Below the pieces are notes generated by a model. It was not told the origin of the DNA. It worked only from the letters and a program-made list of their open reading frames with translations, and searched no databases. From Streptomyces sp. NBC_00370 (GTDB taxonomy: Bacteria > Actinomycetota > Actinomycetes > Streptomycetales > Streptomycetaceae), in assembly GCF_036084755.1 (NCBI RefSeq), contig NZ_CP107968.1, forward strand, positions 3,317,501 to 3,381,500: a stretch of 64,000 bases of DNA. The letters run 5' to 3'. The position numbers were made by a program, and so were the translations under genes. This document shows, piece after piece, positions 16,694-18,152 of this stretch. The number at the start of each line of letters is the position of its first letter. Position 1 is the first letter of the stretch.

Positions 16694-16957
16694 TCAGATC
16701 GCGGCTTTCTTCAGCCGCCGGCGCTCGCGCTCGGACAGGCCGCCCCAGATGCCGAATCTCTCGTCGTTGGCGAGAGCGTATTCGAGGCACTCGGAGCGGA
16801 CTTCGCAGGCGAGGCAGACCTTCTTGGCCTCGCGGGTGGAACCGCCCTTCTCGGGAAAGAAGGACTCGGGATCTGTCTGGGCGCACAAGGCGCGCTCCTG
16901 CCAGCCGAGTTCCTCGTCCGCGTCCTCGACCAGCAGTTGCTGGAACAGCTCGGTCAT
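16694..16957 (-). CDS. whiB: WhiB sporulation regulator (Wbl family)
   Basis: The 87-residue protein has the four cluster cysteines Cys25, Cys48, Cys51 and Cys57 (spacing C-X2-C-X5-C), the GIWGG turn near 69-73 and a basic C-terminus (RERRRLKK). It is nearly identical, as I recall, to S. coelicolor WhiB, which acts with WhiA at the onset of sporulation septation. The cysteines bind a 4Fe-4S cluster. The ATG at 16957 has GAGGGG upstream. The promoter at 17031-17060 gives a leader of about 65 bases. Confidence 0.95.
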   Translation of the reverse strand: MTELFQQLLVEDADEELGWQERALCAQTDPESFFPEKGGSTREAKKVCLACEVRSECLEYALANDERFGIWGGLSERERRRLKKAAI

Positions 16958-17030
16958 GTGCGCCCCTCGTCTGTCTTTGCGTCCCCGTGATGCGGCCGCT
17001 GGAGATTTTCGGCCGAACGACACGAGTGAA

Positions 17031-17421: not shown

Positions 17422-17450
17422 TTGACAGCGCGCGAGGGGTTCGCCACCTT
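17422..17450 (+). promoter_or_regulatory. promoter of the polycysteine leader and cysteine dioxygenase
   Basis: TTGACA (17422-17427) is followed 17 bp later by CACCTT (17445-17450). Transcription would start about 7 bases on, at or next to the ATG at 17458, which makes the leader ORF leaderless. The -10 is imperfect. Confidence 0.5.
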
Positions 17451-17457
17451 TGACCCC

Positions 17458-17553
17458 ATGCCAGCGACCTCCGCGCACACCGCGACCCACCTCCGTGGAT
17501 ACCGCAGCGTTGCCCTGGTCAGCTGTTGCTGTCGCTGTCACGCCGGCCGCTGA
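17458..17553 (+). CDS. putative polycysteine leader peptide upstream of cysteine dioxygenase
   Basis: This is a 31-codon reading frame from ATG to TGA whose end reads VSCCCRCHAGR, with four Cys codons among five. Three of the four are TGT, which is rare in such a GC-rich genome. The start coincides with the expected transcription start, leaving no room for a ribosome site. Leaderless polycysteine frames of this kind are known in mycobacteria as cysteine-responsive attenuators of sulfur genes. Here it stands 86 bases before cysteine dioxygenase, a cysteine-degrading enzyme. The peptide itself probably has no function; the act of translating it would be the signal. Confidence 0.65.
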   Translation: MPATSAHTATHLRGYRSVALVSCCCRCHAGR

Positions 17554-17639
17554 GGCCCGCCTCCCGCGAGGCCCGGCCCACTCGGTGACCGATCTTCTCT
17601 CCGCATCTCTGCTTTCCGCACTCCTGCCGAGGAACACCT
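17554..17639 (+). promoter_or_regulatory. leader segment between polycysteine ORF and cysteine dioxygenase
   Basis: Just after the leader stop lies a small hairpin (GCCTC-CCGC-GAGGC, 17559-17572), flanked by GGCC-rich blocks that allow alternative pairings with the Cys-codon region. No T-run follows, so a classical intrinsic terminator is not obvious. Control could act on translation of the dioxygenase or through Rho. Confidence 0.35.
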
Positions 17640-18152
17640 GTGAACAGCGACAGCGATCTCCAGATCGCCGGCGACATCCTTGAGGTGCCGCACCTTCTCC
17701 AGCCCGCACGTGAGCACCCCGCGACCGTGGCCGAATTCGCCGGCCTCGCGCGGACCCTCGCCGCCGACACCGCGCAGTGGGCGCCGCTCGTCGCGTATGA
17801 CGCCACGAGCCGGTGGTACCACCGGCTGCGCACCGGGCCCGGTTACGAGGTCTGGCTGCTCTCCTGGGTACCGGGCCAGGGCAGCGGCCCGCACGACCAC
17901 GGCCCTTCCTCCGGCGTACTGACCGTGCTGCGGGGCGAGCTGACGGAGCGTACGAAGCGCGGCAACCTCACGCTGACCCCGGGGGCGCTGCGGGTCTTCG
18001 CGCCGGGGTACGTACACGACGTCGTCAACGACGCGCTGGAACCGGCCGTGAGCCTGCATGTGTACTTCCCTGGGCTGACGGAGATGCCGATGCACCCCGC
18101 TCGCACGGCTCCCGCGAAAGCAACCGCCCCACAACGATCAGCCTGCGGCTGA
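17640..18152 (+). CDS. cysteine dioxygenase family protein
   Basis: The 170-residue cupin carries the iron ligands expected of cysteine dioxygenase: His85 and His87 in GPHDHGPSSG and His126 in GYVHDVVND. The enzyme oxidises cysteine to cysteine sulfinate with dioxygen and is the first step of cysteine catabolism. The GTG start has GAGGAA 8 bases upstream. It is preceded by a cysteine-rich leader ORF and followed by cofD. A 24-base sequence spanning its stop recurs before cofD. Confidence 0.88.
   Translation: MNSDSDLQIAGDILEVPHLLQPAREHPATVAEFAGLARTLAADTAQWAPLVAYDATSRWYHRLRTGPGYEVWLLSWVPGQGSGPHDHGPSSGVLTVLRGELTERTKRGNLTLTPGALRVFAPGYVHDVVNDALEPAVSLHVYFPGLTEMPMHPARTAPAKATAPQRSACG

Follow-up and report, generated by a model that had tools for sequence, protein, structure and literature searches.

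The window analysed here, a stretch of 64,000 nt from Streptomyces sp. NBC_00370, contains a putative cysteine dioxygenase (CDO) gene whose GTG start codon at 17640 lies 86 nt past the stop codon of a short upstream open reading frame (uORF) that carries a run of Cys codons near its end. The initial annotation of this region had listed promoter elements, a 31-codon ORF, a Cys codon tract, a hairpin, and the 86-nt gap, and all of these are present. The features considered below are as follows.

17422–17427, + strand: −35 element TTGACA of the putative uORF promoter; its first T lies 35–37 nt upstream of the ATG in 98 of 98 Streptomyces leaders
17445–17450, + strand: weak −10-like element CACCTT (nAnnnT, 7 nt from the ATG), from which the transcript start would fall at or beside the ATG
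17458–17553, + strand: probable leaderless uORF, MPATSAHTATHLRGYRSVALVSCCCRCHAGR, 31 codons, with its TGA ending at 17553; a conserved Cys-tailed uORF
17524–17538, + strand: Cys codon tract TGT TGC TGT CGC TGT (codons 23–27), the presumed stall site; 3–7 Cys in 98 of 98 distinct uORFs
17528–17542, + strand: anti-start arm, predicted in the MFE fold to pair with 17639–17654 over 15 bp with A17643 bulged
17543–17591, + strand: stem region after the tract, including the 17559–17572 hairpin; not conserved as a hairpin
17629–17634, + strand: Shine-Dalgarno (SD) sequence GAGGAA of CDO; SD-like motif in 97 of 98 leaders
17639–17654, + strand: CDO initiation region GTG AAC AGC GAC AGC, target of the tract in duplex and fold predictions
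17640–18152, + strand: CDO, Arg-type cupin, the presumed regulated gene (Pfam CDO_I, 3.5e-18)

Judged from its sequence, the product of the downstream gene looks like an Arg-type CDO. In an alignment to solved structures the residues of the three-His iron site (H85, H87, and H126) are invariant, as are S138, H140, and Y142, and the Y-x-R motif, read by eye because the automatic alignments are shifted by two residues, is YHRL here and YTRN in mammalian CDO. The closest solved structures, the 8qfl group, bear the label cysteine dioxygenase. We take this group to be ergothioneine dioxygenase, an identity that we rejected for the window enzyme because the group is without the Arg present here. Two CDOs of S. 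coelicolor have reportedly been shown to oxidise cysteine. On the CDO_I match and the Arg-type alignment, the gene is a member of cysteine metabolism that is catabolic rather than biosynthetic.

To follow the uORF among relatives, CDO loci were gathered from genome collections. A Cys-tailed uORF precedes CDO in all 109 Streptomyces loci having upstream sequence in a first set; because this set was ranked by similarity, an evenly sampled set of Streptomyces was also examined, and the uORF is present in 20 of its 21 loci. It is likewise found in the 16 other genera of the family Streptomycetaceae that were sampled (24 of 24 loci), and all 24 of these loci have TTGAC at the matching place. Among 45 CDO loci from beyond the Streptomycetaceae, about 8 carry a different type of uORF that contains Cys, and a search for plasmid relatives of the locus found none. 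Within the 98 distinct Streptomyces uORFs, 515 Cys residues fall in the last 13 positions and 7 in the first 18, and the remainder of the peptide is highly variable (MPATxxxxATHxRGFR... or MLANLALTSTRTAGS... in Streptomyces, and quite different sequences in other genera). The proposal that a probably leaderless Cys-codon ORF, most likely an attenuator, stands ahead of CDO is supported, with conservation across the genus and the family. Six Streptomyces loci are without the uORF (L241, L242, L246, L247, L250, and also L159); the first five of these keep TTGAC 64–137 nt upstream of the CDO match, and in all six the N-terminus of CDO is changed (MDNDN, MYSDNE, and MNNDNE). These loci constitute a natural experiment for lost control.

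The distance from the first T of TTGACA to the uORF ATG at 17458 is 36 nt in the window, and an SD-like motif was found in none of the 98 uORFs versus 97 of the 98 CDO genes. The constant spacing and the missing SD are as expected of a leaderless start, and we infer that transcription of the uORF begins at its ATG. TTGACA and CACCTT are separated by 17 nt (N17); a strict sigma-70 scan of the leader gave no promoter match. In S. lividans about 17% of transcripts are leaderless, and leaderless promoters have TAnnnT approximately 6 nt from the start site (PMC8079986). In most of the family positions −16 to −8 relative to the uORF ATG read CGGTSTCCT, with no TAnnnT −10 (the region 17442–17450 of the window), and in leaders of the MLAN class positions −24 to −5 are nearly all invariant; this might reflect an unusual promoter or the site of a regulator. 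A WhiB-family regulator gene (16694–17023, − strand) is divergent from the CDO leader and shares its intergenic region. An Rfam search of the leader returned no match above the gathering score.

Four of the five codons in the tract (codons 23–27) encode Cys, and three of these are TGT, a rare codon that accounts for 10 of the 112 Cys codons of 31 long high-GC3 ORFs in the window. In the MFE fold of the window leader, for which the whole-leader z score is −2.39, the tract pairs with the CDO start such that CAC at 17539–17541 lies opposite the GTG start codon. Duplex predictions over the 98 leaders suggest that in Streptomyces the Cys codons come close to being an antisense copy of the CDO start: the tract–start duplex has an energy of −23.9 kcal/mol compared with −17.5 kcal/mol for synonymous tracts matched in codon usage, and 75 of the 98 leaders lie at or under the 5% level of their synonymous-tract duplex energies. 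Shuffling the order of TGT and TGC within tracts, which leaves the peptide and the codon counts intact, costs 2.42 kcal/mol at the CDO start, whereas the same shuffle at seven decoy targets changes the energy by −0.55 to +0.25 kcal/mol. In the predicted duplexes ACA is the invariable partner of TGT, and GCG lies opposite TGC or CGC (Cys or Arg); this register was picked by the duplex program and the count is therefore descriptive. Changes on both sides of the helix occur as well, with GTG and CAC in the window where relatives have ATG, and with C-G replaced by U-A at position 13. Altogether, both the use of rare TGT codons and the order in which they stand agree with the predicted pairing with the CDO start.

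This complementarity has bounds. The CDO start is not the best energetic target, as on average 17% of nearby windows pair equally well or better, and matched and mismatched species duplexes do not differ in binding because the CDO start hardly varies. All counts are in addition inflated by kinship among the leaders. In other genera of the family the complementarity of tract and start is generally no better than that of synonyms, with pairing only sporadic, yet the TGT bias stays (57:24), which shows that pairing only partly explains the choice of TGT. A few tracts from other genera can, by eye, pair with the SD instead (e.g., L217, CAGCAAGGAC).

To model the effect of a translating ribosome, we represented it as a 32-nt mask and took as the readout the energy needed to open the CDO initiation region, which is a crude treatment based on equilibrium folding. 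Over the 98 leaders the mean opening cost is 14.4 kcal/mol for the naked leader, 7.6 and 6.9 kcal/mol with the A site on the first and second Cys codon, respectively, and 9.2 kcal/mol with the ribosome at the stop. The corresponding values for the window are 20.2, 11.9, 11.8, and 16.9 kcal/mol; a ribosome at codons 22–30 gives 10.8–12.5 kcal/mol. A ribosome placed at codon 6 leaves the modelled CDO start closed, and silent recoding of TGT to TGC reduces the switch from 7.7 to 1.4 kcal/mol. The unpaired probability of the SD shows almost no change with ribosome position and is uninformative, since the SD is engaged in local pairing with spacer sequence; the informative readout is instead the opening cost of the whole initiation region. 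Thus, in Streptomyces the initiation region is predicted to be masked by RNA structure and opened by a ribosome on the Cys codons. Replacing Cys codons by Ser codons would disrupt pairing as well as stalling and could not tell the two effects apart.

With a probability of roughly 0.6, and resting on these models, we propose that the leaderless Cys-codon uORF controls CDO by translational attenuation in which the tract itself is the lock and CDO is ON at low Cys-tRNA. With no ribosome on the uORF, the Cys tract would pair with the CDO start codon and codons 2–5 and block initiation; when Cys-tRNA is scarce, a ribosome would be held on the Cys codons, presumably stalling there in vivo, and would cover the tract and free the CDO start; and when cysteine is ample, the ribosome would pass and terminate and the lock would re-form. 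Because the mask model opens the CDO start with a ribosome on the tract, the anatomy of the leader indicates that a held ribosome would leave CDO open. Such polarity is the ordinary one for translational attenuation and is the opposite of that in the initial annotation, which had stalling lower CDO expression, a view drawn from the function of the enzyme and not from the sequence. With the ribosome on the Cys codons the modelled start is open, and it is shut once the ribosome has finished or when none is present.

The region between the uORF and CDO was also searched for structures. The 17559–17572 hairpin has a perfect 5-bp stem in the window, and it had been suggested that this hairpin and flanking GGCC blocks could act as a switch and that the Cys codons and the hairpin should be aligned across Streptomyces. 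In such alignments the Cys codons are kept and the hairpin is not; relatives have in its place a block, GCTCCRGC, approximately 9 nt past the uORF stop that can pair with the uORF end. We consequently dropped the hairpin and GGCC switch, the conserved partner of the tract being the CDO start. Helices between the block and the SD and between the block and the uORF end were also set aside, their counts being suggestive and confounded by kinship. No intrinsic terminator was found between the leader and CDO, which speaks against a classical terminator attenuator, and a consensus fold of the whole leader showed hardly any signal, given spacer lengths of 74–277 nt. The spacer (17554–17639 in the window) is C-rich and G-poor, with a mean C/G skew of +0.36 and a skew of at least +0.22 in all 98 leaders over this range of lengths, and that of the window is in the top 1.5% for the region. 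Spacers of this composition resemble Rho-loading sites.

Leaderless polycysteine short ORFs of mycobacteria reportedly act as attenuators. Papers citing the original work describe translational attenuation of mycobacterial cysteine genes by such ORFs (Canestrari et al. 2020, as cited in PMC13236596, PMC9094748, and PMC9031893). Like these, the Streptomyces uORF is a short, probably leaderless ORF and has contiguous Cys codons near its stop ahead of a cysteine-metabolism gene, and its stalled ribosome is predicted to free a masked initiation region; unlike them, as far as the citing papers describe them, its target is CDO, its family is the Streptomycetaceae, and the lock is the Cys tract itself, antisense to the start codon. 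On these predicted structural features, the Streptomyces leader appears to resemble the mycobacterial polycysteine attenuators. The candidate Cys leaders of Mycobacterium, Propionibacterium, and Bifidobacterium (Seliverstov et al. 2005; PMC1262725) share the Cys runs near the stop, have no terminator hairpin, and have possible Rho sites, but their targets are biosynthetic cys and cbs genes, and Streptomyces and CDO are not reported there. In S. lividans, leaderless leader ORFs of amino-acid genes are also known, but the eight leaders in that survey (for Leu, Trp, Ala, Ile, Met, and Thr) include none for cysteine or CDO (PMC8079986, Table 4), and the uORFC-8-2 motif of Rhodobacterales, a uORF with Cys codons before cysS, differs in that its Cys codons are in tandem, an intrinsic terminator is present, and the gene that follows encodes an aminoacyl-tRNA synthetase (PMC8632094). 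We rate the Streptomyces leader as a known kind of device, here with a catabolic target and with sensor codons that would double as the lock. Control of an amino-acid catabolic gene by a leader peptide is also seen in tnaC of the E. coli tryptophanase operon, where surplus free tryptophan acts through arrest of the nascent peptide and Rho to turn expression on; the window uORF differs from it in that no peptide conservation or intrinsic arrest is evident.

Other leader ORFs were noted as well. The second CDO-type gene of the window's genome (L174, G000:C1:6307700-6309600) is accompanied by a Cys-ending uORF at 744–830 on the − strand, VTDTDVRLWRRVHVDLLRYAGCVCRPSC, the peptide of which is nearly identical in 16 of 16 other Streptomyces (L253–L268; TDTxVRLWRRVHMDLVRYAGCVCRPSC); this conservation, unlike the divergence of the window uORF, may indicate a nascent-peptide role. 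At L175 a short ORF (877–960, − strand; MSRAGIALVSRRHVDLGRMSSAICRVS) lies upstream of sulfite reductase and PAPS reductase genes and has an RRxHxDLxR core in common with the second CDO leader, but only a single Cys.

The polarity of the proposed switch is odd, as a cysteine-consuming enzyme that rises in cysteine shortage makes little metabolic sense. Furthermore, in the accessible part of a report on Streptomyces SCUT-3 grown on cystine-rich feather medium, in which orthology to the window CDO is unstated and cysteine supply is not set apart from other effects, cdo1 and cdo2 mRNA are up 50- and 8-fold (PMC7181669), a rise that could point against stalling turning CDO on. Either the role of CDO is a different one, or the polarity is set at an additional level, or our model has the direction wrong. 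An attenuator of reversed logic would make metabolic sense and would fit the SCUT-3 mRNA levels: in it CDO would fall upon a stall at low cysteine and rise with complete translation of the uORF at high cysteine, either because the RNA rearranges or because the region is kept clear as ribosomes terminate. The GCTCCRGC block can pair with the end of the uORF and perhaps close to the SD as well, with correlated changes (Fisher p of 5e-5 and 0.0025, both confounded by kinship), which leaves room for a second switch. We nevertheless consider this reading unlikely: in 42 leaders the modelled start opens more readily, by over 2 kcal/mol, with a ribosome on the tract than with one at the stop, in 7 it opens less readily, and in the window it re-closes with the ribosome at the stop.

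Transcriptional attenuation of the Rho type, with a translating ribosome controlling access to the C-rich, G-poor spacer, agrees with the skew found in every leader whatever its length and with the lack of an intrinsic terminator, and Rho sites after mycobacterial cys leaders have been weakly suggested (Seliverstov et al. 2005; PMC1262725). However, no more than approximately 30 nt separate the stall site from the stop, and both lie upstream of the spacer, which would therefore be exposed in both states, and the match of codon order to the CDO start would be left unexplained, so that we consider this reading quite improbable. We give similarly little weight to the uORF as a plain sensor of cysteine starvation in which TGT codons are simply slow, the match to the start arises incidentally, and another structure exerts control. 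The persistence of the TGT bias in genera with weak start pairing and the restriction of family-wide conservation to the Cys tail and the leaderless promoter are what such a sensor would predict, but the order of TGT and TGC, and not just their number, fits the CDO start and no decoy, and silent recoding abolishes the predicted switch. Finally, a Cys codon run is not improbable on its own, the pattern TGYTGYTGYNNNTGY having 118 sites in the genome compared with 131 for a reversed control, and a short ORF with no regulatory role could have been retained by chance. The uORF stands above chance because it is conserved and not because of the codon run itself: its presence at a fixed promoter distance in nearly all evenly sampled Streptomyces and in the other genera, with C-terminal Cys kept while the rest of the peptide diverges, makes retention by chance hardly credible.

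More tentatively, we suggest that CDO of the Streptomyces family is switched on at low Cys-tRNA through codons antisense to its own gene start. If so, translational attenuation by Cys codons would extend to a catabolic gene in a large family of antibiotic producers, and the pairing would give a reason for at least some of the rare-codon use in the leader ORF; three silent TGT-to-TGC changes (codons 23, 25, and 27) are predicted to unlock CDO with the peptide unaltered. On this view the main task of CDO would be other than the removal of toxic excess cysteine, and the enzyme would take part in a response to starvation, for example by acting on another thiol or supplying sulfite; or else the ribosome would read a signal other than cysteine scarcity. 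The polarity of the switch thus bears on what CDO is for in these bacteria.
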